Positions 807 through 34,555 of a stretch of 44,667 bases of DNA are shown here, piece after piece. The translations under genes and the position numbers were made by a program. The notes below the pieces were generated by a model. The model was not told the DNA's origin and did no database searches. It saw only the letters and a list, made by a program, of their open reading frames with translations. The stretch comes from Myxococcales bacterium (GTDB taxonomy: Bacteria > Myxococcota_A > Polyangia > Polyangiales > Polyangiaceae), in the NCBI GenBank assembly GCA_025351875.1, contig JANXVA010000407.1:1-44667 (forward strand), read 5' to 3'. Numbering within the stretch: position 1 is the first letter of the stretch; every line of letters begins with the position of its first letter.

Positions 807-1685
807 TCAGGAGGTCGTGCAGCGGTACTCGCAGCGGAGCAGGCTGGCGCGGGAGGTCGTCACCTTGCGCGGCATCCGCGCGCGGATCTGCTGGATGCAC
901 TCCAGCTGCTCGAAGCCGCCGACGTCCACGCGCATGTGCCGCAGCTGGCCGTCCGGCGAGAACCGGAGAAGCACGGCTGGAACGACGAGCTGCGCGCCGA
1001 CGCGGTCGAGGCACTCGCGAAGATCCTTCATCGTCGCATTCACTCCGGCGGCGACGCGATACTGCTCCTCGTGCGACGACGACGTGGCCTTCGGCACCGT
1101 GCACTGGGTCGAGCAGACCGCGCCGGGCCCCACCGGAGCACTGTCTGCAGGAGGCAGCGCCGCCGCAGGAGGCGCGTGACGCGCCTTGGCCATCGACGCA
1201 CGACGACGCTCCTGGAGCGTGGCGAGGATCCGCTCCGAGGCGGCCCGGAGGGCGAGCACGCGACGGGACTCGGTGGCGTCTCCGGCATCCGCGTTCGGGT
1301 CGAGCGTGGAGGCGGCCTCGAGCTCGCCGAGCGCAGCGTGCGTGCGCGTGTCGATGACGCTGAGGCGAACGGTGACGCGATCCTCGGTGTGCGAAGCCTC
1401 GAGACGCAGAGTGACCTCGGCCTCGTGTCCTTCGTCGCGAGCGAGCGGATCGAAGACGCCGCGCTCCCGCACTCTGCCCTCGAACCAAGGGACGAAGGTG
1501 AAGGCCTCGTTCGCGTCCTCACCGCGTGCGTCCGAGGAGTAGGCAACCGCGCATGTCCAGTACGCGGAGAGGTTGTCAGTGAGCGGCGACGTCTCGACCG
1601 CCACGTCCTTCTTCACGCAGCCACCAGCGCTGCCGACGAGAGCGAGAGCGCCGAGAACGAGGACGACGAACGAGGCGTGCTTCAC
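807..1685 (-). CDS. Hypothetical lipoprotein (292 aa)
   Basis: I do not recognise a family. Translation from the GTG at 1685 gives a clean lipoprotein signal peptide (hydrophobic residues 5-20, then SAGGC with Cys23). The open frame continues upstream, but the GTG fits better because it overlaps the preceding stop codon as GTGA, a typical sign of translational coupling. The mature protein has an N-terminal half resembling a secreted stress-type domain (about residues 30-150, many charged strands), a Pro/Ala linker near 190-210, and a C-terminal domain with four Cys (CSTQC, LECIQ, LRCEYRC). That last domain (about residues 225-290) resembles the AgmX/TonB-C-like end domains common in myxobacterial lipoproteins (DGQLRHMRVD). 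Function unknown. Confidence 0.7.
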   Translation of the reverse strand: MKHASFVVLVLGALALVGSAGGCVKKDVAVETSPLTDNLSAYWTCAVAYSSDARGEDANEAFTFVPWFEGRVRERGVFDPLARDEGHEAEVTLRLEASHTEDRVTVRLSVIDTRTHAALGELEAASTLDPNADAGDATESRRVLALRAASERILATLQERRRASMAKARHAPPAAALPPADSAPVGPGAVCSTQCTVPKATSSSHEEQYRVAAGVNATMKDLRECLDRVGAQLVVPAVLLRFSPDGQLRHMRVDVGGFEQLECIQQIRARMPRKVTTSRASLLRCEYRCTTS

Positions 1686-2509
1686 GTGGGGGTTCTGCGC
1701 CGAAGGATCGTGGAGAGGCAAAGAAGGGCCGACAGACCGAGAGCGGAGAGGGAGACCGAGCCGCCAGCGCCGCGCCCCGAGGCGGCGCCGATGGAGCATC
1801 CGGAGGCGCTGCCGTCGTCGGCGGGCGGACCCGCCGCGCCCGAGCTCGAGGCCGCCATTCCGGAGGTGCCGCTGATGCTCCCCCCGTCGGTGCCACCGCT
1901 CGTGCCGCCGCCGCTCGTGCCGCCCGTGCCGCTCGTGCCGCTGCTCGACCCGGCATCGCTCGCCATCCCGGCATCGAGCGCCGTGATGGTGATGGCGCGG
2001 GTGGTCGTCGCCACGGCATCGCCGCCGGTGCCACTTCCGTTCGCCGCCATTCCCGAGACGTACATGGTGATCGCGCCCGGGACGTTGGGCGCGATGAACG
2101 AGAACTTGTACGTCGCCGTCGCGCCGCTCGGCGGAGGGTCGACCGCGGCAAGCTCGGTGGGCTCCTGGGCAGGGAGCGGCGTGTCGGTGTTGGTTCCTTT
2201 GACCGTCTTCACGCCGTCGGTGAACGCGGCGTTCAACGACGTACGTACGCGGTTGCCGGCGACGACGATCGTGACCTGCGAGGTCGAGCCGGCCACGACG
2301 GACGTGGGAACCGTGATCGTGAGCGTGGGCGGGTTCGCACCCTTGGCGTGGCAGTTCGTCGTGCAGGTCTCGGAGGTGCCGTTGTACGGCTTGCCCGAGT
2401 AGCCGGTGATGCCCGGATGTGCGCCTGCACTCCGCGCGAGCGTCACCGCCGCGACCGCTACGAACAGGGCGCAGCGCGGAGCGAGGCGAAGGTCGGTGCG
2501 CTCGTGCAA
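1682..2509 (-). CDS. Secreted Reelin-like/choice-of-anchor protein with MYXO-CTERM-like tail
   Basis: The 275-residue product has a signal peptide (residues 1-30). Next comes the motif HPGITGYSGKP with a CX3CH sequence (Cys49, Cys53, His54), then a beta-sandwich domain to about residue 180. A long Ser/Gly/Thr linker (about 185-235) leads to a C-terminal signal: Cys238, a hydrophobic segment (about 250-269) and RRR. This layout matches MYXO-CTERM surface proteins, thought to be processed by a rhombosortase/myxosortase-type protease and anchored in the outer envelope. The N-terminal layout resembles the choice-of-anchor V / MXAN_6652 group, whose members usually have CXXCH. The start is probably TTG at 2509, four bases after the creatininase stop. 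Its stop overlaps the next gene's GTG. Heme binding through CX3CH is possible but unproven. Confidence 0.75.
   Translation of the reverse strand: MHERTDLRLAPRCALFVAVAAVTLARSAGAHPGITGYSGKPYNGTSETCTTNCHAKGANPPTLTITVPTSVVAGSTSQVTIVVAGNRVRTSLNAAFTDGVKTVKGTNTDTPLPAQEPTELAAVDPPPSGATATYKFSFIAPNVPGAITMYVSGMAANGSGTGGDAVATTTRAITITALDAGMASDAGSSSGTSGTGGTSGGGTSGGTDGGSISGTSGMAASSSGAAGPPADDGSASGCSIGAASGRGAGGSVSLSALGLSALLCLSTILRRRTPT
1888..1950 (-). repeat. Low-complexity Gly/Ser/Thr linker coding repeat
   Basis: Short imperfect repeats of gtgccg/ctcgtg units run through this stretch. They encode the SGTSGTGGTSGGG-type linker of the MYXO-CTERM protein. Such tracts can vary in length by slippage. They space the folded domain from the C-terminal anchor. 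Confidence 0.5.
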
Positions 2510-2513
2510 GGTC

Positions 2514-3260
2514 TCAGGAGCGTAGCACCACGAGCGCTTCGGAGACCTCGGTGACCACCATGGTGACGAGCTTCTCGTAGAGCGCCTCGCCCTCCTCGGC
2601 CGTCGCCTCGCGCGGCGCGCCCGTGTACGCGCGATCCATCCCGATCTCCGCGAAGGTCGCCTTCCCCGACCGTATGGCCTCCGAGAGGCTCAGCCCGAGC
2701 GACGGGAGCTCACCGAACGACCCGCGCACGCGCGCGCCCGCGGCGAGAGAGAGCGAAGTCTCGTAGCGGCCCGCGTGGCAGTCTCCGCGCTTGAACTCGT
2801 CGGACAGCGTGCGGCCCCAGCGACGCGTGAGCGGACACGCGACCGACCCTGCCCCCCTGGGGAGCCCCTCGATCGCAGCGCGAACGGCCGTGTCATGGGC
2901 CGGCTCGAGGTGATTGTTCACGAAGCAGACGTGACTGAAGCCCGTCGCGAGCAAGCTCTTCGCGATCGCGTGCAGCATCGCGGTGAGCGCCTCGGCAGGC
3001 ACGCCGATCGCGCCCGCGAAGCCGGCGGCGTAGTCGGTCACGCCGTAGGGAACCGACGGAGCGACGACCGCGCGTACATCGGCCTCGAGGCGGTCGGCGG
3101 CGCGCTTCGCGCAGACGAGGCTGATCGTCGTATCGGTATCGAGCGGGAGGTGCGGCCCGTGGGGCTCGACGCTGCCGACGGGAACCAGCACGACAGCGGG
3201 GCCGGCCGCGAGGATCTCCGCGACCTCCTCGTACGTGAGGTCGGCGAGCATACGCGCCAC
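2514..3260 (-). CDS. Creatininase-family amidohydrolase
   Basis: This creatininase-fold metal-dependent amidohydrolase has 248 residues, the usual length. Visible motifs are VGSVEPHGPHLPLDTD (metal-binding Glu, His and Asp), VNNHLEP at the place of the usual GNGHGGN loop, and CHAGRYET carrying the His and Glu of the second metal site. The family cleaves cyclic amides, formamides and similar C-N bonds; the substrate here is unknown. The start is chosen as GTG 3260, because an AAGGGG ribosome-binding site sits nine bases upstream. An ATG at 3251 would be too far from it. Only one base separates this start from the ligase stop, so the two are surely co-transcribed. The replacement of HGGN by HLEP may alter substrate specificity. 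Confidence 0.85.
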   Translation of the reverse strand: MARMLADLTYEEVAEILAAGPAVVLVPVGSVEPHGPHLPLDTDTTISLVCAKRAADRLEADVRAVVAPSVPYGVTDYAAGFAGAIGVPAEALTAMLHAIAKSLLATGFSHVCFVNNHLEPAHDTAVRAAIEGLPRGAGSVACPLTRRWGRTLSDEFKRGDCHAGRYETSLSLAAGARVRGSFGELPSLGLSLSEAIRSGKATFAEIGMDRAYTGAPREATAEEGEALYEKLVTMVVTEVSEALVVLRS

Positions 3261-3261
3261 G

Positions 3262-4893
3262 TCAGCTCGCCCCTTGCGCACGGGCTCGAAGCGCCTTCTT
3301 GTCGATCTTGCCGCGGTCGTTCTTGGGAAGATCGGCGACGAACTCGACGACGCGCGGATACTTGTATTTTGCAAGTTTCGCCCGCACGTGGTCCTGGAGC
3401 TCGACGGCGAGTGCCGTCGACTCGGCGTGCCCTGCGCGCAGGACGACGAAGGCCTTCGTCTTGACGAGCCCCTCTTCGTCGATGCCGATCACCGCGCACG
3501 CGGCCACCGACGTGTGTCCGAGCAGGCATTCCTCGACCTGCGTGGGCGCGACCCACTGACCTCCGACCTTGAGCAGGTCGTCCGCCCGGCCTGCGAAGTA
3601 CAGGTAACCCTCCTCATCCATGTGGAAGAGATCGCCGGTGCGGCACCAGTGCCCGTGGAAGGTCTTCCAGCTCTTGTCGCGATCGAGCCAGTAGCCCTGG
3701 CTCACGCTGTCCCCCTTGACCCAGAGCACGCCGATCTCGCCCGGCGCACACGGTGCCGCGCCAGAGCCCTCGGCGTCCTCGGGGAGGACCTTGAGCTCGT
3801 AGCCACCGACGGCCTTACCGAGCGAGCCGACCTTGATGTCGCCGGGGCGGTTCGATGCGTAGATGTGGAACATCTCCGCCGAGCCGATGCCGTCGTAGAC
3901 GTCACTCGCGAAGCGCTCGTTCCACCGGTCGAGGAGCGGGCCTGGGAGCGCCTCTCCGGCGGAGAGCGAGAAGCGCACGCTCGAGAGGTCGAGCCCGGGC
4001 TTGCCGGTCGCGGTGAGCTCGGCATCGTGCTCGAGGAGCTTGCCGAGCATCGTCGGCACGTTGGTCACGACGGTCGGGCGATACATCGCGAATGCGTTGG
4101 CGAGGCTCTCGGGGGTCGGACGCTCGCTGAAGAGCCCCGTGGTCGCTCCGACCGCAAACGGGAACATGAGGTTCGTCCCGGTCGCGTAGCCGAAGAAGAG
4201 GCGCGGCACGCTGACCGTGATGTCCTCTCTCCGGTAGCCGACGGTGTCCTTCGCGTAGACCTCGGTATTGAACGCGAAGTCGCGACCCGTATGAATGTTC
4301 GCCTTCGGCTCTCCCGTCGAACCGCTCGTGAAGAGCCAGATCGCTGGCTCGTCGCGGTGCACGCGCGTGACCTCAGCCTCGGGCGCAGCATCGAGCGCGG
4401 GCGCGAGCTCGAGCATCTTGGAGGTCGCGGCGAACGCGGAGATGCGCTGCTCGGCGTCCTCGCCGGTCGCGACGTCGGGGACGACGAGCACGACCTGCAC
4501 CTCGCTGCCCGGAGCCTCCACGATCGTGCGCAAGGATGCGGCGACCTCGGGGGTCGTGATCACGGCGGTCGCCCGCGTGTAGCTCACGAGGTACGCGATG
4601 CTCTCGACGGGACCGTGCGGGTTTCCCATCGCGACGACCGCGCCCCGCGTGAGCGCACCGAAGAAGGACCACACGAACGGAGGCGAATCGGGGAGGACGA
4701 TGAGGACGCGCTCACCGCGCCGCACGCCACGCGCCGCGAGCAGCCCCGCCATCTGGCGCGATTTCTTGGCGACGGCTTCGTACGTCCAGCTGCGATCGCC
4801 GAAGCGGAGCGCGACCTTCGAGCCGAGGCCTTCGCCCAGCCGATCGTAGAGGAAGTACCGGGCGAGACTCAGGTCTTCGGGGAGCGCGCTCAC
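3262..4893 (-). CDS. Benzoate-CoA ligase family protein
   Basis: This ANL-superfamily adenylating enzyme (543 residues from GTG 4893) activates a carboxylic acid with ATP and transfers it to coenzyme A. The P-loop-like motif LFTSGSTGEPKA lies near residue 190, the second motif (DGIGSAEMFHIY) near 335, and the GYLYFAGRADDLLKVGGQWV hinge near 435. The C-terminal catalytic Lys is in PKNDRGKIDKKAL. DGIGSAEMFHIY and the extended N-terminus are characteristic of the benzoate/2-aminobenzoate-CoA ligase branch. It leads a tight polycistron with the creatininase, and 5-10 kb upstream on the same strand lies a set of acyl-CoA enzymes. The likely substrate is an aromatic or cyclic carboxylic acid, but benzoate, 2-aminobenzoate and cyclohexane carboxylate cannot be told apart. 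Confidence 0.9.
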   Translation of the reverse strand: MSALPEDLSLARYFLYDRLGEGLGSKVALRFGDRSWTYEAVAKKSRQMAGLLAARGVRRGERVLIVLPDSPPFVWSFFGALTRGAVVAMGNPHGPVESIAYLVSYTRATAVITTPEVAASLRTIVEAPGSEVQVVLVVPDVATGEDAEQRISAFAATSKMLELAPALDAAPEAEVTRVHRDEPAIWLFTSGSTGEPKANIHTGRDFAFNTEVYAKDTVGYRREDITVSVPRLFFGYATGTNLMFPFAVGATTGLFSERPTPESLANAFAMYRPTVVTNVPTMLGKLLEHDAELTATGKPGLDLSSVRFSLSAGEALPGPLLDRWNERFASDVYDGIGSAEMFHIYASNRPGDIKVGSLGKAVGGYELKVLPEDAEGSGAAPCAPGEIGVLWVKGDSVSQGYWLDRDKSWKTFHGHWCRTGDLFHMDEEGYLYFAGRADDLLKVGGQWVAPTQVEECLLGHTSVAACAVIGIDEEGLVKTKAFVVLRAGHAESTALAVELQDHVRAKLAKYKYPRVVEFVADLPKNDRGKIDKKALRARAQGAS

Positions 4894-4927
4894 AGCGCGG
4901 TCTTACCTGGACGGCGCGGGGAAGAGA

Positions 4928-4941
4928 AGCCGCGCGCGGCT
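4928..4941. repeat. Perfect 14-bp palindrome between FGE-like lipoprotein and ligase genes
   Basis: AGCCGCGCGCGGCT is a perfect inverted repeat without a loop, lying in the 56-base gap between two minus-strand genes. It could be part of a weak terminator or a binding site. There is no T-tract, so chance in GC-rich DNA is quite possible. Confidence 0.35.
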
Positions 4942-4949
4942 AGGTGGTC

Positions 4950-6401
4950 TCAGTACGAGCAGCGGACGCCGATGCCGTAGTAGCCCTCGGGGGTCGCGGG
5001 GAACTGGCTTGCCCACGACGTGGTCTTCAGGTTCTTCTCGTGGTTTTCCCACGACTGCGTCCAGACGAACGACTTGGCGGCATCGCGGACGTAGGGCATG
5101 AGGTTGCCGGCGGCGTCCATCACGCCGTGCATGTTCGCGCCGGTCGGGCGACGTCCGGGGGGCGCGATGTAGAACGCGTGATCGAGCGGGTACTGACCGT
5201 TGACGGTCCGGAGACCCGCGGGCGGGTTCGGCGTCTCGTAGCTGTAGCGATGAATGAGGCGCATGTCCGCGCTCTGCGGGTTGTACGCGGACGTGTCGTT
5301 CCACTGCCACGGGTAGCCCGTCGCGCCGCCGGCACGACCGCGGTTCTCGTAAACCCAGCTCATCTCGGCGGTGCTCACGAGGTGACCGCCGTCGAACGCG
5401 CAGACGGCCGCGGCCATGTTCCACGGCACGCAGTTGAGCGCCTTCTCGTCGAGGGCGTCCTTCGAGAAGTCGGACTTCTCGGCGGCGACGCCGTCGACCG
5501 CGTCCTGCCAGAACGTGCGGCCACCCTGGTTGGCGACGTCGCATCCACGCTTGCCTTGCGGGCTGAGGAGGATGTTCACGTCGTCCATGTTCTCGGGCAG
5601 TCCGCCGGTGAGGGACGGGTCCCAGCCCTTGGGGTTGGTGGAGGCCCACTGCTTCAGGTTGCCCTGGAAGCGCTCGGCGAAGGCGCGCATGCGGCCCGCG
5701 GTGACGGCGTACTTGTCGATCGAGAACGCGCCGCCCTGGCCGGCCGGACGGTCCGCCACGTCGACGCGCGTGCAGCAGCTCTCGTGCTTGGCGTCCGCCG
5801 CACCCGTCTCGCCCGCGCCGCAGGTGTCGCCGCCGAAGTGTGCCGTGCATCCCATGAAGGCGACGCACTTCTTCTCGTACGAGCAGGCATCCGAGGCGCA
5901 GTCGCCGTTCGTCGCGCAGCTCATCGCGACCGCGCACTTCGGCGCCTTCGTGCCGCCGCAGTCGACGTCGGTCTCGTCGCCGTTCTTCGCGCCGTCCGTC
6001 GGAGACGGCGAGGCGCACTTCTTCGCCGTGCAGATCGCGTTGGTGCAGTCACCGCCGACCTCGCACGCCTGACCGTCGACGCACTTCGGCGCCTTCGTAC
6101 CGCCGCAGTCGACGTCGGTCTCGTCACCGTTCTTCGCGCCGTCGGTCGGAGACGCGTTCAAGCTCGCGGCCGTGGGCGCGCAGCGACCGTCCGTGCAGAG
6201 ACCCGAGCGACAGTCGAAGCCGACCTTGCAGTCCGAGCCCTCGGTCTTGCCGTTCGGGTTCGGGGTCGCATCGGCGGCCGGGTCGGCCTCGCTCGTGCTC
6301 GAGCAGGCCGCGAGGCCCGCAAGCATCAGCGCCCCGACGGCGATGACAGAGGAGAAGGAGGTAGCGCGGTCACGCGAGAGTGCGGAGAAATGCAGGCCCA
6401 T
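4950..6401 (-). CDS. Cys-rich lipoprotein with C-terminal FGE/SUMF1-like domain
   Basis: The 483-residue product has a lipoprotein signal (GLAAC, Cys33). A Cys-rich stalk (about 55-215) contains two copies of a 24-residue module (SPTDGAKNGDETDVDCGGTK...), typical of myxobacterial surface lipoproteins. The C-terminal domain (about 225-483) has the landmarks of the formylglycine-generating-enzyme fold: SIDKYAVTAGRMRAF, VPWNMAAAVCAFDGGHLVSTAEMSW, GVMDAAGNLMPYVRD and the ending YYGIGVRCSY. The paired catalytic Cys motif of true FGE is not evident, so a non-catalytic or ligand-binding role is likely. It sits between the Old Yellow Enzyme operon and the ligase operon, separated from the former by 272 bases, and may be its own transcription unit. 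Domain call confident; function unknown. Confidence 0.85.
   Translation of the reverse strand: MGLHFSALSRDRATSFSSVIAVGALMLAGLAACSSTSEADPAADATPNPNGKTEGSDCKVGFDCRSGLCTDGRCAPTAASLNASPTDGAKNGDETDVDCGGTKAPKCVDGQACEVGGDCTNAICTAKKCASPSPTDGAKNGDETDVDCGGTKAPKCAVAMSCATNGDCASDACSYEKKCVAFMGCTAHFGGDTCGAGETGAADAKHESCCTRVDVADRPAGQGGAFSIDKYAVTAGRMRAFAERFQGNLKQWASTNPKGWDPSLTGGLPENMDDVNILLSPQGKRGCDVANQGGRTFWQDAVDGVAAEKSDFSKDALDEKALNCVPWNMAAAVCAFDGGHLVSTAEMSWVYENRGRAGGATGYPWQWNDTSAYNPQSADMRLIHRYSYETPNPPAGLRTVNGQYPLDHAFYIAPPGRRPTGANMHGVMDAAGNLMPYVRDAAKSFVWTQSWENHEKNLKTTSWASQFPATPEGYYGIGVRCSY
5934..6152 (-). repeat. Two 72-bp direct repeats encoding a Cys-containing module
   Basis: Positions 6081-6152 and 5934-6005 encode the identical 24-residue peptide that begins SPTDGAKNGDETDVDC and ends KAPKC. 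The offset is 147 bases. The DNA copies differ at a few third-codon positions, so the duplication is not very recent or is maintained by protein-level selection. Confidence 0.9.
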
Positions 6402-6509
6402 CGAACGGGTGCGGACTGCACGAAGCTTGCCGGACGCAGGGGGCGAGGTGGATCACGTCGGGCCCACCCACGAGATTTCGCGAGAGCGAGCGAATCCCCG
6501 GCGCAGAGT

Positions 6510-6532
6510 CGTGTCCACGGCGAGTGGACGCG
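6510..6532. repeat. Strong inverted repeat (9-bp stem, 5-nt loop)
   Basis: CGTGTCCAC (6510-6518) and GTGGACGCG (6524-6532) pair over nine positions with one G-U wobble and a GGCGA loop. It lies in the 272-base gap between the Old Yellow Enzyme stop and the FGE-like lipoprotein start. It could end the upstream transcript, although there is no T-run on either side, or be a protein-binding site. I see no other gene in this gap. Confidence 0.5.
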
Positions 6533-6673
6533 AGCAATCACGGAGGAGCGAGACGTAACCGCGACGTGGAAAGGAGCAACCCCGGTGGATCGGAATCACC
6601 CCGCGAGCGGTGCGTGGACCGCGCATAAGATGCCGCAGGATGTAGGGAAACTGGGGAGACCGACGAGCGCGCG

Positions 6674-8113
6674 TCAGTCGGGGATCCGCACGTGCGCAGT
6701 GCCGCTCATCGGGCCGCGGTTGCCCGCGAGGTCGTAGGGCTTCACGGCGTAGCGGTAGGTCGCGCCAGGGACGACGCGCGTGTCCTCGTAGCGCGCCGAG
6801 AGCGCGCGGACGCTCGCGTGATGCGTGAGGAGCGGGACAGCTTCGCCGAGCGCCTCGCCGCGGAAGACCTGGTAGCCGTACATCGCGTCGGCATCGGTCG
6901 CTGCCTTCCAGCGGAGGACGACTCGCCCTTCCTTGTGCTCGGCGGTGAGCTCGGCGCCCGCGGCGGGCCAATCGGGGGGCGTCGTGTCGTCACTCTCCGG
7001 AGCCTGGCCGAGCTTCTTCGGCCAAAGCGTGCAATCTACACGCTTAAAGTTCTCGTCGAGGGTCTTGCAGACGTTGCCGTAGATGCAGCGAACGACCCGC
7101 TCTTCGTGGCCGTGCTGCCACTTCTTCGGGAGGTCGGGATCCGCGAGTAGAGCGCGTGCCATGCCGACGAGATCGCCCTGCCCGCGCGCGACGACCTTCT
7201 CGGCGAGCTCCTTCGTGCCGAGCTTGCCCACCGCGATGACCGGGGTATCGAGGTTGGCGGCGCGGAGAGCCGCGCGGACGGCCTCCGGGATCGCGAGGTT
7301 CGCGCCGTCCGGATACGCGGCGCCCGGCATGCAGCGATCACCGGAGTAGCCCGTGTACGGATAGAGCGGCTCGCCCGCGATGACGCGGGCGTCCTCGAAC
7401 TTTCCGCCGGCGGAGAGCGAGATGTAGTCGGCGCCGGCGCGCGCGAGCTCGATGGCGATCGGGCCGGCGTCGAGGACGGTGTAACCGTTGCGGATGCACT
7501 CCTCACCGAGGAAGCGCACGCCGATGGGGAAGTCGTCACCGACGGTGGCGCGTACGCTGCGCATCACCCGGAGCGGGAGACGCAGGCGATTGGCGAGTGA
7601 CCCGCCGTACTCGTCCTTGCGCGGGTTGAGGCGCGAGAGGAAGGAGGAGAGCGTGTACGCGTGCGCCATGTGGAGCTCGACGCCATCGAAGCCGCAGGCG
7701 CGCGCGCGGAGCGCAGCGTTACCGTAGGCGTCGACGATCGCGTCGAGGTCGTCCTTCGAGAGCATGTCGACCGTCTGGCGCCAGCCGGAGCGCGCGATCT
7801 TGAGAAAATGGATGATCTGCGGGACGACCTTGGAGGGGCCGGCGTCGTGGACACGGCGCGCGAGGTCCTCGAGGCCCGGGACGAACTCGCCTCCGGAGAT
7901 GCGGAGCAACGGGCCGCTCTTCGCGGAGTGGACCGCCATCGCCTCGACGACGATGAGACCTACGCCGCCGCGAGAGAATCGCGTGTATCGCGCACGTATA
8001 TCGTCGTTGACCACACCATCCTCGCCGGAGAGGCGCGTCACCATCGCGGGGAGGACGAGCCGGTTCGGCAGCGTCATCGTGCGAATCGGAAACGGCTCGA
8101 ACAGCACGCTCAT
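6674..8113 (-). CDS. NADH:flavin oxidoreductase (Old Yellow Enzyme) with C-terminal FN3-like domain
   Basis: Residues 1-345 of this 479-residue protein form an FMN-binding OYE barrel. It starts LFEPFPIRTMTLPNR, has the active-site helix HMAHAYTLSSFLSRLNPRKDEYGGS, and has the phosphate-binding end VGMARALLADPDL. A Cys cluster follows like that of trimethylamine dehydrogenase/2,4-dienoyl-CoA reductase: Cys343, Cys349, Cys361. The second expected Cys is Gly346, so a normal [4Fe-4S] cluster is doubtful. There is no C-terminal NAD(P)H-binding domain as in dienoyl-CoA reductase. Instead residues about 385-478 look like a fibronectin type III domain (VVLRWKAATDADAMYGYQVFRG, GATYRYAVKPYDLAGNRG). A GGAGG site lies eight bases before the ATG. 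It is the last gene of the RidA-crotonase-dehydrogenase operon and probably reduces a CoA-bound ring or enone. Confidence 0.85.
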   Translation of the reverse strand: MSVLFEPFPIRTMTLPNRLVLPAMVTRLSGEDGVVNDDIRARYTRFSRGGVGLIVVEAMAVHSAKSGPLLRISGGEFVPGLEDLARRVHDAGPSKVVPQIIHFLKIARSGWRQTVDMLSKDDLDAIVDAYGNAALRARACGFDGVELHMAHAYTLSSFLSRLNPRKDEYGGSLANRLRLPLRVMRSVRATVGDDFPIGVRFLGEECIRNGYTVLDAGPIAIELARAGADYISLSAGGKFEDARVIAGEPLYPYTGYSGDRCMPGAAYPDGANLAIPEAVRAALRAANLDTPVIAVGKLGTKELAEKVVARGQGDLVGMARALLADPDLPKKWQHGHEERVVRCIYGNVCKTLDENFKRVDCTLWPKKLGQAPESDDTTPPDWPAAGAELTAEHKEGRVVLRWKAATDADAMYGYQVFRGEALGEAVPLLTHHASVRALSARYEDTRVVPGATYRYAVKPYDLAGNRGPMSGTAHVRIPD

Positions 8114-8132
8114 GGCGCGAGCCTCCGTCGCT

Positions 8133-9338
8133 TCACTTCGTCGGAGGCGGTGCGACGAGGGCTCCGCCGATGATGAGCTTCTGGATCTCCGTGGTCCCCT
8201 CGTAGATGCGGAGCGGACGAATCTCGCGGTACAGGCGATCGACGACGCAGCGATCAGTCACGCCCAGGCCACCGAAGAGCTGCACGGCGCGGTCGATGAT
8301 GCGCTGCGCGGCCTCCGTCGCGTACATCTTCGCCATCGCCACGCTGGTCGCGGTCGCGCGGCGGGCAGCCGCCGCGTCGGCGCCGGGCTGGTCCTTCTCC
8401 CACGCGGCACGGAAGACGAGGAGGCGCGCGGCGTCGAGCTCGGTCGCCATGTCGGCGAGCGCGGCCTGCGTGAGCTGGAACTCGGCGAGCGGCTTGCCGA
8501 ACTGGATGCGTGTGGTCGTGCGGGCGATGGCCTCATCGAGCGCGCGGCGCGCCATTCCGACGGCTGCCGCCCCGACCGACGTGCGGAAGACGTCGAGCGT
8601 TCCGAGCGCGAGGCGAAGGCCGTGGCCGACCTCGCCGAGCAGCGCGCTCGCGGGGACCTTGCAGGCGTTGAGGCCGACGCGCCCGAGCGGGTGATCGACG
8701 CTCATCGCGATCGGCTCCGTGGTGAGCCCGTCAGCCTTGGCATCGACGAGAAAGGCGCTGATGCCCTTCTTGCCCTGGGCAGGGTCGGCGTTGGCAAACA
8801 CGATGTAGTGGTGCGCGATGCCGACGTTTGAGATGAAGACCTTCTCGCCGTCGAGGATCCAGGTGTCGCCTTCGCGGCGCGCCGTGGTGCGCATCGAGGC
8901 GACGTCGCTGCCGGCCTCGGGCTCGGTGAGGGCGAAGGCGCAGACGCGCTCGCCGGCGACGACCTCGGCGAGGACGGACGCGCGGCGGGCAGCTTCTCCC
9001 GCGAGGAGGATCGGGTGTGAGCCGAGGCCCTGGACCGCGAAGATCGAGTCGGCGAGGGGCGATACGTACGCGATGGCCTCGCGCGCGACGGAGAGCGCGC
9101 GCACATCGACGCTCGCGCCGCCGTTGCCCCAGGCGCCGCCGCCGTGGCTCTTGGGGACGAGGAGCTTCGTGAGGCCGAGCTCGGCGAGGCGTGGGACGAC
9201 GCGCGCCGGTTCGTGGAGCGCGACGTCCTCGTCAGAAAGAGCGGTGTCGCAGTCCTTGCCGAGCGCGCGGTGCGCGTCGTCGAAGAACATGGGGAGCGCC
9301 GACCACGAGGGGCGTGTTCGGTTCGGGGGAGCGGCCAT
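8133..9338 (-). CDS. Acyl-CoA dehydrogenase family protein
   Basis: This is a 401-residue flavoprotein of normal family length. It shows the FAD/substrate signature FALTEPEAGSDVASM, the strand TWILDGEKVFISN, the helix FGKPLAEFQLTQAALADMA and the C-terminal QLFGGLGVT. The catalytic base is Glu380 in YEGTTEIQKLIIG, the usual place in short- and medium-chain acyl-CoA dehydrogenases. The start at ATG 9338 lies eight bases after the crotonase stop. The open frame extends a further 159 codons upstream across the crotonase gene, but that extension has no domain and is not expected to be translated. The enzyme should oxidise an acyl-CoA and pass electrons to ETF; the cyclic-acid pathway is inferred from its neighbours. 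Confidence 0.92.
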   Translation of the reverse strand: MAAPPNRTRPSWSALPMFFDDAHRALGKDCDTALSDEDVALHEPARVVPRLAELGLTKLLVPKSHGGGAWGNGGASVDVRALSVAREAIAYVSPLADSIFAVQGLGSHPILLAGEAARRASVLAEVVAGERVCAFALTEPEAGSDVASMRTTARREGDTWILDGEKVFISNVGIAHHYIVFANADPAQGKKGISAFLVDAKADGLTTEPIAMSVDHPLGRVGLNACKVPASALLGEVGHGLRLALGTLDVFRTSVGAAAVGMARRALDEAIARTTTRIQFGKPLAEFQLTQAALADMATELDAARLLVFRAAWEKDQPGADAAAARRATATSVAMAKMYATEAAQRIIDRAVQLFGGLGVTDRCVVDRLYREIRPLRIYEGTTEIQKLIIGGALVAPPPTK

Positions 9339-9346
9339 CGTGGTGC

Positions 9347-10186
9347 TCAGGCCTTCCGCGGGGGCGAAGCGATGAAAGGCCCGCTCGCGCCCTCGAAGAC
9401 GCACGGCTCCTTCTTCACCCACGAGTCGTAGGCGGTGCGGAAGTCGGGGTGCTGCATGCAGATGGCCTGCGCCTGGGCTTCGGCCTCGATCGCTTGATCG
9501 AGGGTCATGGTGTGCTCGCTCTCGAGCATCTGCTTCGTCATCGCGTGGGCGAACGCCGGGCCGGAGGCGAGACGCTCGGCGAGGGCGAGCGCCTCGGGGA
9601 CACAGGCCTCGGGGGCGACCACCCTCGACACCAGGCCGATGCGAAGCGCCTCTTCGGCCGAGACGACGTCGCCGAGGAAGAGGAGCTCGTTCGCGCGCGC
9701 GAGACCGACCACCCGCGGGAGAAGATACGCGGCGCCCATGTCCGCACCGCACAGGCCGACCTTCGGGAAGATGAAGCCGAACTTGGCCGCCGAGCTCGCG
9801 ATGCGAAAATCGCACGCGAGCGCCATCACGGCGCCCGCGCCGACGGCAGTGCCGTTGACCGCGGCGACGACCGGCCGGCGAAGCGCGCGGATGTTGCGAA
9901 TGAGCGCGCCCGTCACGCGCGTGAAGGCGACGAGGCCCTTCATGTCGCGCGCGAAGAGCTCGCCGATGATCGAGTTCACGTCGCCGCCCGAGCAGAACGC
10001 GCGGCCTTCACCGGTGACGAGGACGGCGCGGACGGCGTCCACGTGGTCGAGCGCGGCGAACGTGTCGCGGAGCTCCTCGTAGACCTCGAAGGTTAGCGAG
10101 TTGAGCGTATCGGGGCGCGTGAGCGTGATCGACGCGACACCCGAGGGCGAAAGCTCGTAGCGGAACGTCTTCGGCTTGATGCTCAT
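9347..10186 (-). CDS. Enoyl-CoA hydratase/isomerase (crotonase) family protein
   Basis: This is a 279-residue crotonase-fold protein. The oxyanion-hole segments are GRAFCSGGDV (about 61-70) and AVNGTAVGAGAV (about 109-120). At the position of hydratase Glu144 it has Lys142 (FPKVGL). The second catalytic Glu is present (Glu167 in ANELLFLGD), and Asp149 in GADMG lies near the Asp used by dienoyl-CoA isomerases and dehalogenases. Classical hydration of a trans-2-enoyl-CoA is therefore unlikely; isomerisation, ring-opening or another CoA chemistry fits better. A GAGGAA ribosome-binding site precedes the ATG. It is the second gene of a four-gene operon, 40 bases after the RidA-like gene. Confidence 0.9.
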   Translation of the reverse strand: MSIKPKTFRYELSPSGVASITLTRPDTLNSLTFEVYEELRDTFAALDHVDAVRAVLVTGEGRAFCSGGDVNSIIGELFARDMKGLVAFTRVTGALIRNIRALRRPVVAAVNGTAVGAGAVMALACDFRIASSAAKFGFIFPKVGLCGADMGAAYLLPRVVGLARANELLFLGDVVSAEEALRIGLVSRVVAPEACVPEALALAERLASGPAFAHAMTKQMLESEHTMTLDQAIEAEAQAQAICMQHPDFRTAYDSWVKKEPCVFEGASGPFIASPPRKA

Positions 10187-10226
10187 GGGTTCCTCGTCCG
10201 TGTGGAGGTTCGGAGGCGAGCGAGCG

Positions 10227-10634
10227 TCAGGACGGGAGGATCGCGACGCCTTCGATCTCGACGAGCGCGCCCGGCTCGAGCAGGCCGGCGACCTTCACGA
10301 GGCTCATGGCCGGGTAGTACTTGCCGAGGCGGCCGCGCCAGCCTTCGCCGATCGCCGGCGCGCCAGCGCGATAGGCGTCGAGGTCGGTGACGAACACAAG
10401 GAGTTTGACGATGTGCTCGGTCGCGCCGCCGGCCTCGCGGACGATGTCGATCACGTTGTCGAGTGCCTGGAGGAACTGGACTGCGAAGTCCGGGCTGACG
10501 ATGTGAGCATCCTTGTCCCAGCCGATCTGGCCGGCGATATGGAGGACGCGACCGCCCGGCATGTCGGTGAGGATGCCGTTCGCATAACCGCGCGGCTTGG
10601 GGAAATGCGAAGGGTGGATGACCTTGTGACCCAT
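10227..10634 (-). CDS. RidA (YjgF/YER057c/UK114) family protein lacking the catalytic Arg
   Basis: This is a 135-residue RidA-fold protein of normal size (VLHIAGQIGWD near 30-40, VKLLVFVTDL near 77-85, the C-terminal strand ALVEIEGVAIL). E. coli RidA uses Arg105 in PARS to hydrolyse 2-aminoacrylate imines. Here the aligned residue is Met110 (YPAMS), so it belongs with Rid subfamilies that are not classical imine deaminases. Such Rid proteins often sit in catabolic operons. It is the first gene of the acyl-CoA operon, with a predicted promoter at 10660-10688. Its GGAGG ribosome-binding site lies in the 3' arm of a short hairpin (10644-10660). A role on an enamine or keto intermediate is inferred, not shown. 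Confidence 0.9.
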   Translation of the reverse strand: MGHKVIHPSHFPKPRGYANGILTDMPGGRVLHIAGQIGWDKDAHIVSPDFAVQFLQALDNVIDIVREAGGATEHIVKLLVFVTDLDAYRAGAPAIGEGWRGRLGKYYPAMSLVKVAGLLEPGALVEIEGVAILPS

Positions 10635-10643
10635 ATGCAGCCG

Positions 10644-10660
10644 CCTCCGGTGCGCGGAGG
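10644..10660 (-). promoter_or_regulatory. 5'-UTR hairpin masking the ribosome-binding site of the RidA-like gene
   Basis: On the minus strand, CCTCCG (10660-10655) pairs perfectly with CGGAGG (10649-10644) across a 5-base loop. The GGAGG in the 3' arm is the only good Shine-Dalgarno, nine bases before the ATG. A folded leader would hide it. Confidence 0.45.
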
Positions 10661-10688
10661 GTGTAGGCGCGAACGGCGCGAATGTAAA
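10660..10688 (-). promoter_or_regulatory. Predicted sigma-70-type promoter of the acyl-CoA operon
   Basis: On the minus strand TTTACA (10688-10683, five of six matches to TTGACA) is followed, after 17 bases, by TACACC (10665-10660, three of six matches to TATAAT). It lies 26 bases upstream of the RidA-like start and is the only promoter-like pair in this 87-base gap. Confidence 0.4.
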
Positions 10689-10721
10689 GCAAGGGTGGGC
10701 CGCCCCAGGCCCGAGGTGCGG

Positions 10722-11774
10722 TCAGGTCTCCGCAGCCCGGCGAAGGCGGTCCGCGACGGCCCACCATCCTGGGGCCCCAGGCACGCGTTCGATGACGAGG
10801 GCGTCGAGCCCCGCGGCATCGGCGTCGTGGAGGGCCGCGAAGATCGCCTGCGCGTAGGCGGGCGCCTCCGCGGGCAGCACAGTCAACGTGGTGAGGGAGA
10901 GACCGCCTCCGCTGACCGCAGCCTCAAGCTCGCTCGTCGCAGCCTCGCTCCACACGATGGCCCCGAGGCGGTGCGCTGGGCTGGCGGACGAGGACGTGCT
11001 CGCGAGGCCTCTCAGCTCGCTCAGGACCGCCGCCCCGGCGTCGACCAGGAGGACACGCGTGCGCGGCGCATAGTGCTTCGCCGCTAGACCGGGCGAGGCA
11101 CGTGCGGCATCCCCCGCGAGGGAGATCGCTTCGTAGACGATGCCGGGAACGACGGCGCGGAGCGCGTCGAGCCCGGCGGCTCCGGCACGGAGCACGCGGG
11201 GCGGTTCGTTCACGATGTCCACCACGGTGGACTCGATGCCGTGAGCGCAGGGTCCGGCGTCGAGGACGAGGTCGACGCGATCGCCCAGCGATCGCACGAC
11301 GTGCGCGGCCGTAGTGGGCGAGATGTGCGTGTGGGCGTTGGCGCTCGGCGCCGCGAGCGGCTCGCCGACCGCACGAATGAGCGCGAGCGCGACCGGATGC
11401 TGGGGTGCGCGGACCCCGACGGAATTGAGACCACCGGACACGACGTCCGGCACGTGCGGGGCACGGGCCACGACGAGCGTGAGCGGCCCTGGCCAGAACG
11501 CGAGCGCGAGGCGCGAGGCGCGCTCCGACCATGAGGTCGTGAGCGTGCGCGCCATCGCCTCGCCGTCCACGTGGAGAATGAGGGGGTGTCCCGTGGGCCG
11601 CTCCTTTGCGGCGAAGATGCGCCGAACGTCCGCCTCGTGGAGCCCGCGCGCCCCGAGCCCGTAGACGGTCTCGGTCGGGAACGCCACGAGGCCTCCCCGC
11701 GCGAGGACGAGCGCGGCCTCGGCGATCACCGCCGGCTCGGGGCTCGTGGCCGACACGCGGAGCACTCGGGGCAC
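10722..11774 (-). CDS. sua5: L-threonylcarbamoyladenylate synthase (Sua5/YrdC family)
   Basis: This two-domain Sua5-type enzyme (350 residues from GTG 11774) makes threonylcarbamoyl-AMP from threonine, bicarbonate and ATP for the universal t6A37 modification of ANN-decoding tRNAs. The YrdC domain (about 10-200) shows FPTETVYGLGA, AAKERPTGHPLILHV, APSANAHTHISPTTAAHV and ESTVVDI. The C-terminal Sua5 domain (about 230-345) follows ASPGLAAKHYAPRT, the linker motif that distinguishes Sua5 from the shorter TsaC. The open frame continues upstream with low-complexity residues, so one of three closely spaced GTG codons (11774, 11765, 11756) is the likely start. It is divergent from the lipoprotein gene at 11836. 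Confidence 0.92.
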   Translation of the reverse strand: MPRVLRVSATSPEPAVIAEAALVLARGGLVAFPTETVYGLGARGLHEADVRRIFAAKERPTGHPLILHVDGEAMARTLTTSWSERASRLALAFWPGPLTLVVARAPHVPDVVSGGLNSVGVRAPQHPVALALIRAVGEPLAAPSANAHTHISPTTAAHVVRSLGDRVDLVLDAGPCAHGIESTVVDIVNEPPRVLRAGAAGLDALRAVVPGIVYEAISLAGDAARASPGLAAKHYAPRTRVLLVDAGAAVLSELRGLASTSSSASPAHRLGAIVWSEAATSELEAAVSGGGLSLTTLTVLPAEAPAYAQAIFAALHDADAAGLDALVIERVPGAPGWWAVADRLRRAAET

Positions 11775-12530: not shown

Positions 12531-13760
12531 CTATTCGTGACGTAGCGCGACGATCGGATCGAGCGCCGCCGCGCGGCGAGCCGGGAAGAAGCCGAACGCG
12601 ATGCCCGTCGCCGCGCTCGTCGCCACCGCAATCGCGAGCGCCACTGGGTCGAGCTTCATTGGCCATCCCAACGTCCCGCCGAGGACCGCGATCGCGCCGA
12701 TCCCCGTGAGCGCACCCGCGATGCCGCCGATCAGCGCCAGCACCACGGCCTCCACCAGGAACTGCAGCATGATGTCGTTCGCGCGCGCGCCAATCGCCAT
12801 ACGAATGCCGATCTCGCGCGTCCTCTCGGTCACGCTCACCAGCATGATGTTCATCACGCCGATGCCACCGACCACGAGGCTGACCGCCGCGATGCATACG
12901 AGCAGCACGGTCAGCAGCGAGTAGATCGCCCCCTGCATCGCCTGGAACTCCTGCTGCGTGCGGATCCAGAAATCCGGCTCGCGATCGTCGCCGATGCGAT
13001 GACGCTGCCGGAGGATGCTGTCGATCTGCTTCACCGCGCGCTGCGTCGTCTCCGCGCTCGTCGCCGAGACCAGCAAGACTCCCGCAAACCCAGGCGCCGT
13101 CCGCATGATGCGCCCGCGCATCGTACCGATCGGCATGAGGACCATGTTGTCCTGGTCACCGCCAAACGGCGCTTCGCCCTTCGACTCGAGCACGCCGACC
13201 ACCCGAAACGTGTAGCGCCCGGTGCGGACGCTGCGCCCGACCGGATCCTGATCGCCGAAGAGCTTCGTCGCGACCGTCGAGCCGAGGACGCAGACCTTCG
13301 CCTTCGTCGCCTCGTCGTGCTCGTCCCACTGTGCTCCAGTCTTCACCGCCCAGCTGCGCACCGAGAAGAAGGACCGATTCGAACCGATGACCTGCGCCGA
13401 CCAGTTGCGCTCGCCCGCCACGAACTGCGCGCGCGACCGCAACGCCGGCGCGACCGCCGAAACGCTCACGGCCTCGCGCACGATCGCCTTGCCGTCGTCC
13501 TCCGTGAGCCGCGCCCCCGCCCCGAGCGCACCACGTGCTCCCGACGCCGCCGCGCTCTGCGGGGCGATCATGATCACGTTCGAGCCCATGTTCTGGATCT
13601 GGTCGGAGACCTGATCGCGCGCGCCCGCACCGAGCGCCGTCACCGTGACGACCGCGGCGACACCGATGAGGATGCCTAGGATCGTCAGCGACGCGCGCAG
13701 CGTGCTTCGCACGATCGAGCGTATCGCGAGCCGAGCTCCAGTGAGGAAGGCGCCGAGCAT
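12531..13760 (-). CDS. ABC transporter permease, MacB-like (second copy)
   Basis: This 409-residue permease has the MacB layout. An N-terminal TM helix carries the signature TILGILIGVAAVVTVTALG. A periplasmic MacB_PCD domain (about 50-250) follows, then an FtsX domain with three TM helices (about 285-400), including [29 protein letters not shown]. It has no ATPase domain, unlike E. coli MacB. It is closely paralogous to the permease just upstream (same length and motif order) and starts only three bases after its stop codon. A heterodimeric export channel driven by the adjacent ATPase is the natural reading. The substrate is unknown; MacB-type mechanotransmission complexes export peptides, lipoproteins or drugs. 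Confidence 0.92.
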   Translation of the reverse strand: MLGAFLTGARLAIRSIVRSTLRASLTILGILIGVAAVVTVTALGAGARDQVSDQIQNMGSNVIMIAPQSAAASGARGALGAGARLTEDDGKAIVREAVSVSAVAPALRSRAQFVAGERNWSAQVIGSNRSFFSVRSWAVKTGAQWDEHDEATKAKVCVLGSTVATKLFGDQDPVGRSVRTGRYTFRVVGVLESKGEAPFGGDQDNMVLMPIGTMRGRIMRTAPGFAGVLLVSATSAETTQRAVKQIDSILRQRHRIGDDREPDFWIRTQQEFQAMQGAIYSLLTVLLVCIAAVSLVVGGIGVMNIMLVSVTERTREIGIRMAIGARANDIMLQFLVEAVVLALIGGIAGALTGIGAIAVLGGTLGWPMKLDPVALAIAVATSAATGIAFGFFPARRAAALDPIVALRHE

Positions 13761-13763
13761 TCG

Positions 13764-14993
13764 CTACTCCTGCCTCAGCGCTTCGATCGGATCGAGCTTG
13801 GCCGCGCGCCGCGCCGGGAGATACCCGAACACCACGCCGATGATCGCGCTCGTCGCGACCGCGACGACGACCGACTCGACGCTCGGCACCGCGTTCCATC
13901 CTAGCGCGCGACCGAGACCGATGGTGGCCCCGGCCCCGACCACGATGCCGAGCACCCCCCCGGCCATGCTCAGTACGATCGCCTCGATCAGGAACTGGAT
14001 CAGGATATCGCGCTCGCGCGCGCCGATGGAGAGGCGGATACCGATCTCCCGTGTCCGCTCCGCGACGCTGACGAGCATGATGTTCATCACGCCGATGCCG
14101 CCGACCACGAGGCTCACAGCGGCCACGGAGAGAAGGAGCGCCGAGAGCACGTCAGCGATCGCCTGTTGCGCCTGGCGAAACTCGGCCTGGGTGTTGACGA
14201 CGAAGTCGGCGTCCTTCCCGTCCGCGATTCGATGGCGCTGCCTCATGATCGACGTGATCTGTTCCTGCGCGCGGGCGGTCGTCTGATCCGACGTGGAGCT
14301 CGCCATGAACATGTCGACCCGCCCCGGAGCGGTGTGCATGACACGCGCACGAAAGCTGCCAATCGGCATGAGAATGCGATCGTCCTGGTCCTCACCGAAG
14401 GGCGAATTCCCCTTCGGCTCGAGCAAGCCGATGATGCGATACGGCGAGCGACCGATCCGGATCGTGCGCCCAATCGGATCGTCGGTCCCGAAGAGCTTGT
14501 CGGAGACGGTCGTGCCGATCACGCACACCTTCGTCTTCAACGTCTCGTCGCTCTCGGTCCAGAGATCGCCCTTCGAGATGCGAAAGCGGCGGATCGGAAA
14601 GTACGAGATCGTCGTGCCAGCGATCATCGTGGCAGCGTTCTTGTCGCCGTAGACCACCTGCGCGGCCGTGGAGAGGAACGGAGCGACGCGCTCGACGCTC
14701 ACGGCATCGCGCGCCACCGCCCGCGCGTCGTTCTCGGTGAGACGACCGGTGACCTTCCCGCGTGCGCCCGAGGACTGGACGTTCTCCGGGTTGATGAAGA
14801 GGAGGTTGGAGCCGAAGCTATCGATCTGGCTGCCCACGCTCTCCGACGCGCCACCGGCGAGCGCCGTCACGATCACCACCGCCGTGACGCCGATCAAGAT
14901 TCCGAGGACCGTGAGCGCCGCGCGCAGCTTGTTGCGCACGATCGCGGAGAGCGCGAGACGGATCGCACCGAGGACCAGCGCGAGCCCACTCAC
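13764..14993 (-). CDS. ABC transporter permease, MacB-like (first copy)
   Basis: This 409-residue paralogue of the next gene has the same MacB_PCD plus FtsX arrangement ([20 protein letters not shown] near residue 30; [29 protein letters not shown] near 315). It starts at GTG 14993, which overlaps the stop of the preceding ATPase reading frame as GTGA. Translation therefore depends on ribosomes reaching the end of the ATPase frame, which matters because that ATPase gene carries a frameshift. The two permeases differ enough that the duplication is old. Confidence 0.92.
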
Positions 14994-16257
14994 GTGTGCC
15001 CGCCCGCGCCGGCTCCTTCTTTTGGTTTCGACAGCGGCGAGACGAGCGGAGAGACGGCCGAGAGGACGAGGTAGCGCGCGAGCGCGACCGTCGCGAGGCC
15101 GAGCAGCGTGACGCCGAGCGCCGCGACCGCACCGCCCGACGAGAGCCCGTCAAGACGATCGAGGAGCTCCTTACTATTCGGCATCCATCCGAGCGCGAAC
15201 GCCGGCGCGATCACGCACGCGACGACGAGCGTGTAGGTGATCGCGATGCGGACGCGCTGGTCGCTCGTGAGCGGACGGCCGAGTCGCTTGCCGCCGAACC
15301 AGCTGGCGACGAGCGCCTCGAGGACGAAGCCGAACGCCAGCGGGATCACCGTCGAAGACGTATCGAGCACGAGCTTCGTGTAGAGCCCGCCGAGCACGAT
15401 GCCCACGATGCCCGCCGCGACCATCGCAACATAGAGGAGCGTGGGGACGGGGCCCCCGAGGCGGCGACGCGCGGCGAGAGCGGGATCGGCGTCTTCGTCC
15501 TTGGAGGAGGCGCCGCTGTGATCCTCGACCGGAAGCGCCGCCAGCTCGGCGGCGGCGTCGAGCGGCTTCTCGTGCGTGATGTCGGTCACGATCCGGCCGT
15601 CGCGGAAGGTCACCACGCGCGAGGCACAAGCCGCGATGTCGTGCTCGTGCGTGACGAGCACGATCGTGATGCCGCGGTCCTGGTTGAGGCGCTGGAGGAG
15701 CGCGAGCACCTCGAGGCTCGTCCGCGTGTCCAGGTTCCCGGTGGGCTCGTCGGCGAGGAGCATCGGCGGGCGCGTCACGAGGGCGCGCGCGATCGCGACG
15801 CGAGCTGCTGACCGCCAGACAGCTGGTTTGGTGTATGATGCACACGATCGCCGAGACCGACGGTGTCGAGCGCCTCGTTCGCCCACTTACGCCGCTCGCG
15901 TGCGCTGACGCCGCGATACACGAGCGGGAGCTCGACGTTCTCGAGCGCCGTCGTGCGCGGGAGCAGGTTGAAGCCCTGGAAGATGAACCCGATGAGGCGA
16001 TTGCGCAGGATCGCGCGCGCATCGCTGCCGCGCGTGCCCACGTCGAACCCGCCCAGCTCGTAGACGCCCCGGGTAGGCCGGTCGAGGCACCCGAGGATGT
16101 TCATGAGCGTGCTCTTACCGGAGCCGCTCGTTCCGACGATCGCGACGAACTCGCCCTGCTTGATCTCGAGGTCGACCTCGCGCAGCGCGCGCACCGTCCC
16201 CGCCCCGGAGTCGTAGTCCTTCTCGACGCGGCGAAGAGTGATGAACGCAGACTCCAT
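14990..16257 (-). pseudogene. MacB/LolD-type ABC ATPase with C-terminal membrane domain, interrupted by a one-base frameshift
   Basis: The frame from ATG 16257 encodes Walker A (GTSGSGKST, residues 42-50), the Q-loop ([10 protein letters not shown]) and the signature LSGGQQ, then runs out of frame and stops at 15775. The correct continuation ([26 protein letters not shown] with Walker B, then the H-loop THEHD) is in another frame, ending at 14990. The total length, 1268 bases, is one short of a multiple of three. Between the codons for GGQQ and VAIAR there are five bases (CTCGC) instead of six, at about 15799-15805. After the ATPase the protein has an unusual domain with about four hydrophobic segments ([19 protein letters not shown] to [14 protein letters not shown]). 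It may be a sequencing error, a real pseudogene or a recoded gene; the intact downstream domain favours one of the non-decay explanations. Confidence 0.8.
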
Positions 16258-16263
16258 GGGCGC

Positions 16264-17532: not shown

Positions 17533-17559
17533 GTGACCAAGTGCTCCAAAGCCGCGAGG

Positions 17560-17587
17560 AGCATAGATATTCCTCGGGAAGGGGCAA
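17560..17587 (-). promoter_or_regulatory. Predicted promoter of the MacA-MacB-like operon
   Basis: On the minus strand TTGCCC (17587-17582) and TATGCT (17565-17560) are separated by 16 bases, each with four of six matches to the consensus. The pair lies 28 bases upstream of the adaptor ATG. The upstream edge overlaps the palindrome at 17586-17603. Confidence 0.5.
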
Positions 17588-17603
17588 ACGCCCATGGGCG
17601 TTT
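17586..17603. promoter_or_regulatory. 18-bp perfect palindrome, putative operator
   Basis: AAACGCCCATGGGCGTTT reads the same on both strands. After one mismatched pair the symmetry continues as GGGG/CCCT, giving a dyad from 17581 to 17608. It overlaps the predicted -35 of the adaptor promoter, a typical repressor position. No TetR, MarR or MerR gene is nearby. Confidence 0.6.
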
Positions 17604-20829: not shown

Positions 20830-22902
<2,073 letters not shown>

Positions 22903-34546: not shown

Positions 34547-34555
34547 CGCGAGGCG

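Follow-up and report, generated by a model that had tools for sequence, protein, structure and literature searches.

A stand-alone OYE-family reductase in a probable 2-aminobenzoyl-CoA gene set whose monooxygenase is encoded on another contig

The 44,667-nucleotide window analysed here is a whole contig (JANXVA010000407.1, our C446) of a Myxococcales bacterium (assembly GCA_025351875.1), whose genome of 8.93 Mb is spread over 805 contigs. Its minus strand carries a run of genes for a benzoate-CoA-ligase-family enzyme, a creatininase-family amidohydrolase, an OYE-family reductase, an acyl-CoA dehydrogenase (ACAD), a crotonase and a RidA-family protein (Table 1). An earlier note on this DNA had named these six families, and all of them are open reading frames on one strand scoring above their Pfam cut-offs; the extent given there, 3260–10634, leaves the creatininase gene outside. 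From gene order and co-occurrence, we consider it likely that the run makes up most of a gene set for the aerobic 2-aminobenzoyl-CoA (anthranilate) pathway, with the OYE, hereafter OYE2, as a dedicated component and the monooxygenase encoded on another contig. That the run belongs to this pathway, whatever the role of OYE2, is very probable. The genes, their conserved order, the presence of the monooxygenase gene in the genome and the co-occurrence are all seen directly in the sequence.

Table 1 Genes of the run in the window, with the profile matches that identify them.
Feature	Position	Strand	Match and remarks
RidA-family protein	10227..10634	minus	PF01042, 69.2 bits (cut-off 27.3); proposed enamine hydrolysis
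Crotonase, enoyl-CoA hydratase family PRK08258	9347..10186	minus	NF006107, 387.2 bits (cut-off 330)
Acyl-CoA dehydrogenase (ACAD)	8133..9338	minus	PF00441, 152.1 bits (cut-off 22.4)
Stand-alone OYE-family reductase OYE2, type B	6674..8113	minus	PF00724, 166.3 bits
Lipoprotein-like gene inside the run	4950..6401	minus	no Pfam family above cut-off
Benzoate-CoA-ligase-family enzyme, proposed 2-aminobenzoate-CoA ligase	3262..4893	minus	TIGR02262, 418.5 bits (cut-off 375.25)
Creatininase-family amidohydrolase	2514..3251	minus	PF02633, 153.9 bits (cut-off 31.3)

The ring-attacking enzyme of this pathway is a fused 2-aminobenzoyl-CoA monooxygenase/reductase (ABMR), recognized by the model NF006101/PRK08255; its monooxygenase domain is hereafter called ABM. 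The earlier note reported the monooxygenase half as absent, which is correct for the window but not for the genome (G000), where an intact fused ABMR lies on the minus strand of contig C225 (positions 1129–3396) and scores 1142.5 bits, above the model's cut-off of 1078. The search for a FAD monooxygenase of the salicylyl-CoA 5-hydroxylase type that the note had called for therefore ends in a complete fused enzyme, and the possibility that the genome lacks it is ruled out. On C225 (L127), ABMR is the sole match among nine query proteins. In two relatives, G015 and G005, the genes for RidA, crotonase, ACAD, OYE, ligase and creatininase continue into ABMR on one strand, and in a third, G007, RidA, crotonase, ACAD, ligase, creatininase and ABMR form a run, with the OYE on another contig. 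Some relatives also have an SDR gene before RidA and a MarR gene after it. Because the same order recurs in relatives, the association of the genes is above chance; together with the ABMR on another contig, it makes an operon for the anthranilate pathway, with a monooxygenase missing only locally, the most likely reading, and the gap seen in the window is most likely a displaced gene. The resemblance to the 2-aminobenzoyl-CoA pathway pointed out earlier holds, and an operon for ‘another cyclic or N-containing acid’, as the note suggested, is the less likely reading.

Across 115 genomes of the order Polyangiales, OYE2 matched in 59 and was scored as present in 57, the weak matches of G023 and G065 being set aside; ABMR was present in 53 and the crotonase in 58. 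OYE2 and ABMR occur together in 50 genomes, OYE2 alone in 7, ABMR alone in 3 and neither in 55 (Fisher p 3.8e-21, relatedness ignored); for OYE2 and the crotonase the corresponding counts are 55, 2, 3 and 55 (Fisher p 1.6e-26, relatedness again ignored), and these two genes lie at most 12 kb apart in 19 of the 55 carriers of both.

The association extends beyond this order. A contig scan with an OYE alignment gave at least 555 relatives, of which the best 80 were kept; the 58 of these loci that score above 240 bits were taken as OYE2 and the other 22 as a FadH-like outgroup. Near the OYE2 genes we identified RidA at 24 loci, crotonase at 22, SDR at 24, MarR at 14, ligase at 23, ABM at 13 and creatininase at 6, against SDR at 4, ligase at 3 and none of the other five near the outgroup. 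Two or more of RidA, crotonase, SDR, MarR and ABM stand near OYE2 at 26 of 58 loci compared with 0 of 22, and a further 26 OYE2 loci have none of them nearby; the 13 loci with ABM belong to Acidobacteriota, Pseudomonadota and Gemmatimonadota. For 42 of the 58 loci, from many phyla, the search was widened to the whole genome, and 39 of these genomes contain an ABM domain; the count covers OYE2 carriers only, and at least two of them (G139 and G152) apparently also belong to the set of 115, judging by identical coordinates. The three exceptions have an OYE half only (G121), a fragment of the reductase half where a contig ends (G115) or nothing (G153). In 14 control genomes, a match at 1e-60 was found in five and one above the cut-off in none. 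The remaining 16 loci fall outside the whole-genome search, and 10 of these carry a fused ABMR within the locus.

The window OYE2 has 479 residues and consists of a TIM barrel with the motif H148-x2-H151-x-Y153, a cysteine region C343-x5-C349-x11-C361 and a C-terminal beta-sandwich at about 389–476, a domain absent from the earlier description of the protein. Seven strands are seen at 389–476 in the structure model, and the FN3-like label of this domain rests on that strand pattern and a partial NCBIfam match (E 1.4e-6). The three cysteines, both histidines and the tyrosine are invariant in 36 of 36 aligned rows, and the motif C-x2-X-x2-C-x11-C occurs in 85 of 88 OYE2 rows, which are not fully independent of each other and include the window itself, with X being T in 53, S in 13, G in 10, C in 3, A in 2, K in 2, W in 1 and I in 1; the window has G. 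The three misses are two rows cut by contig ends (L218 and L219) and one overlong open reading frame (L243). Four cysteines are retained in L175, L176 and L193, and a four-cysteine motif, searched with a slightly looser pattern, is found at the match in 17 of the 22 outgroup loci. Most OYE2 proteins are of type A, which carries an insert of about 70 residues in two adjoining parts and ends without the C-terminal domain, whereas type B, comprising the window, seven Polyangiales relatives and L170–L175, lacks the insert and has the C-terminal beta domain. Type B is not a single clade in the tree, in which long branches leave the base uncertain. Directly before the type B OYE of two Planctomycetota lies a small gene (L172:9483-9851 and L173:4667-5053) with weak, sub-cut-off ferredoxin-like Pfam matches, whose product is a possible electron donor.

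Structure models (predicted local distance difference test scores of 91.6 for type B and 94.1 for type A) place both types closest by Z to 2-naphthoyl-CoA reductase (6qkg), a dearomatising aryl-CoA reductase, with type B, compared over model residues 1–380, at Z 46.2 (root-mean-square deviation 2.2, 355 residues aligned) and type A at Z 43.5 (2.2, 351 residues). Trimethylamine dehydrogenase comes second, at 44.7 for type B and, at the edge of a tie, 42.5 for type A, and the close folds of type B also include 2,4-dienoyl-CoA reductase (1ps9) at 43.7; ranking by Foldseek E-value puts ordinary OYEs first. The shared fold says nothing of OYE2 function. According to two reports, 2-naphthoyl-CoA reductase and the type III aryl-CoA reductases, both of the OYE family, act on aryl-CoA esters (PMC6502838, PMC12093976). 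As opposed to 2-naphthoyl-CoA reductase, with which it shares the OYE-type TIM barrel, OYE2 has no C-terminal FAD domain, the barrel and cysteine region being followed by the beta domain and by no other Pfam family; it has three rather than four cluster cysteines, and its organisms use O2 in this pathway. Lacking the FAD domain and one cluster cysteine, it is not filed with the type III enzymes. The nearest curated sequence models are FadH, BaiCD and mycofactocin OYE 2, but OYE2 scores far below their cut-offs (194.6 bits for BaiCD, cut-off 825; 194.2 for mycofactocin OYE 2, cut-off 793.15) and lacks their C-terminal part. With the reductase half of ABMR it shares the OYE-family barrel and the pathway, yet its PRK08255 score of 147.8 bits is lower than those for the FadH-like models, and one genome holds both proteins. 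OYE2 is thus a separate subfamily and very probably not a detached ABMR half; the earlier view of it as a separate protein stands, and it is indeed a stand-alone open reading frame in a genome that also encodes an intact ABMR. It is a second flavin reductase, apparently undescribed so far, accompanying the pathway in many kinds of bacteria; we found no description of a second OYE in the 2-aminobenzoyl-CoA pathway in the open-licence literature, which misses most subscription papers.

Stand-alone monooxygenases exist elsewhere. G080 and G104, which have a window-type OYE, encode ABMs of 373 and 372 residues, and L203, L216 and L229 encode ABMs of 380, 379 and 392 residues beside OYE2. In a 31-row ABM tree, these five group together as a single clade (100/99), separate from the 24 fused proteins, and are accordingly not fresh breakages of local fused genes. 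Further stand-alone frames occur in G119 (376 residues), G138 (388) and G141 (397), and five genomes with a stand-alone ABM (G119, G141, G154, G155 and G156) have no OYE resembling the ABMR reductase half at 1e-60, G138 having one. A split system of monooxygenase plus OYE, as the earlier description of the locus implied, is thus found in other genomes, as a stand-alone ABM with OYE2, but not in that of the window, where the fused enzyme is intact.

We infer every substrate and reaction of the proposed route, above all those of OYE2. The ligase would form 2-aminobenzoyl-CoA, ABMR would hydroxylate C5 and reduce the ring, and OYE2 might transfer hydride to a CoA-bound hydroxylated or oxo ring intermediate, either where the ABMR reductase half acts or one step later. 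RidA would hydrolyse the enamine, and the crotonase and ACAD, with an SDR encoded elsewhere, would carry out ring opening and beta-oxidation. One study of anthranilate-grown Arthrobacter describes CoA esters fitting hydroxyanthraniloyl-CoA and cyclohexanedione-carboxyl-CoA (PMC3534580); the latter would fit a hydrolytic deamination, a job of the kind that RidA might do. The ligase passes TIGR02262, which makes it a benzoate/anthranilate-CoA ligase at family level only; among its relatives in the PDB are a benzoate-CoA ligase (2v7b, 337 bits) and an anthranilate-CoA ligase (4wv3, 314 bits). By Pfam and NCBIfam profiles, a PRK08258 crotonase, an ACAD and a RidA stand together in the run. In alignments to PDB chains, crotonase D149 matches an aspartate of PaaG-type relatives, which we take to be catalytic there.

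The aerobic 2-aminobenzoyl-CoA pathway of Azoarcus evansii was reportedly described by Schuhle et al. in 2001 and is treated in two later accounts (PMC4539516, PMC3534580). The window's genome shares its ligase, ABMR (on the other contig), PRK08258-type crotonase, ACAD and RidA, and relatives of the window share its SDR and MarR as well. The run differs from it in having ABMR on another contig, in its added OYE2 and creatininase, and in that no thioesterase, SDR or MarR is recognised in it. Annotated clusters on Azospirillum and Sinorhizobium plasmids hold the same kinds of genes as the A. evansii-type pathway.

Whether OYE2 acts on the ring or on the opened chain is, in our judgement, close to an even call. 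The foremost alternative, which we regard as possible though clearly the lesser reading, keeps OYE2 in the pathway but after ring opening, as a beta-oxidation auxiliary resembling 2,4-dienoyl-CoA reductase that works on a chain intermediate. Its nearest curated models are FadH-like (BaiCD and mycofactocin OYE 2), 1ps9 is among its close folds, and a fused ABMR brings a ring reductase half of its own; on the other side, 2-naphthoyl-CoA reductase has the top Z for both types, and in the five genomes with a stand-alone ABM and no ABMR-reductase-like OYE something else must reduce the ring. A second alternative, rather improbable, follows the earlier note in assigning the operon to a different aromatic or alicyclic acid, with ABMR elsewhere in the genome unrelated to it. 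The ligase family is broad, the ABMR model is itself named ‘bifunctional salicylyl-CoA 5-hydroxylase/oxidoreductase’, the window's genome has no kynureninase, and G076 and G082 lack an ABM and carry a PaaA/PaaC-family gene after creatininase; yet the gene order runs into ABMR in relatives, and the sets of genomes carrying OYE2, ABMR and crotonase are near-identical. That OYE2 is nothing more than a reductase half split off from ABMR is very unlikely. The two proteins do share the OYE family and the pathway, and ABM genes also occur on their own, but the profile scores, the intact ABMR and the separate ABM clade all disfavour this reading, with no tree including ABMR reductase halves behind this judgement.

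Several observations weigh against the assignment of the run, with OYE2, to the anthranilate pathway. ABMR is clustered with the other genes in G015, G005 and G007 but not in the window, and OYE2 and ABMR lie at most 12 kb apart in just 2 of the 50 Polyangiales genomes with both. G076 and G082 have the operon genes (on three contigs in G082) and no ABM at 1e-5, and G102 has an ABM match of only 27 bits. Kynureninase fails as a source of anthranilate, being found at 1e-30 in 7 of 115 genomes, the window's not among them. A third OYE is encoded on contig C576 of the window's genome. The SDR and MarR of relatives have no tblastn match in the window, the rest of the genome not having been searched for them. 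Among plasmid records, ABMR is found on 95 (1e-120) and OYE2 on one (1e-60), so that OYE2 is not needed everywhere. In 20-kb annotated stretches of Arthrobacter pAL1 and of Roseivivax, Azospirillum and Sinorhizobium plasmids, whose chromosomes were not searched, no OYE or creatininase is named beside ABMR; a fifth ABMR record carries no annotation. The sole plasmid OYE2 (Limnohabitans NZ_AP027057.1, region 59592-74809; L251 and L256) is separated by about 11 kb from kynB, kynU and kynA and has a 3-oxoadipyl-CoA thiolase gene in its vicinity, with no ABMR annotated in the stretch from 46.6 to 98.0 kb. OYE2 thus predicts ABM well, whereas ABM need not predict OYE2.

The PaaA/PaaC-family gene of G076 (L134:4116-4871, minus strand; PF05138, 53.4 bits, cut-off 28.5) shares 4 nucleotides with the end of the creatininase gene. 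It and its homologues of at least 59% identity (the others being L159–L164) have creatininase as a neighbour in 7 of 7 genomes, a count covering the seven close homologues, with eight weaker matches excluded. All seven retain the di-iron-like pattern E, ExxH, E, ExxH. Five of the seven genomes also have ABMR, G076 and G082 being those with no ABM found, which weakens the idea of a plain replacement for ABM.

The run is a candidate single transcript only, because the lipoprotein-like gene, preceded by a gap of about 270 bp, separates OYE from ligase. Among the relatives' loci compared, the congener G100 alone has a counterpart of this gene in that position (47% identical), and the gene is probably not part of the pathway. 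A consensus scan of 2300–11000 found no promoters or terminators, where shuffles expect 0.3 and 3.1, and is unfit for placing operon ends in such genomes. A mycofactocin link of the creatininase (MftE) is rejected, with TIGR03964 at 105.5 bits below its cut-off of 172. Elsewhere on the minus strand, the window carries an efflux-type set of MacB/FtsX-type permease, ABC ATPase and HlyD-type genes (12531-17595), a CstA carbon-starvation protein (20830-22902, 667.6 bits) and a UvrD-helicase/PD-(D/E)XK protein adjoining a second PD-(D/E)XK protein (30824-37732), an AddAB-like pair by layout.

Joining these parts, we tentatively suggest that OYE2 may represent a family of aerobic aryl-CoA reductases that has escaped recognition and that, in many phyla, would serve the 2-aminobenzoyl-CoA pathway specifically, reduce the hydroxylated ring of a CoA ester and bear a three-cysteine cluster (a site-differentiated 4Fe-4S or a 3Fe-4S). 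In some lineages it would act with the stand-alone monooxygenase clade as a two-protein version of the fused enzyme, and a di-iron protein resembling PaaA/PaaC may take the place of the flavin monooxygenase in one genus. New relative to the known pathway are a dedicated OYE2, its three-cysteine motif and a clade of stand-alone monooxygenases. The conserved RidA, crotonase, ACAD, SDR and dedicated OYE provide named candidates for steps of the pathway, the lineages with stand-alone monooxygenases offer a natural test of the role of OYE2, and the three-cysteine motif is directly testable.

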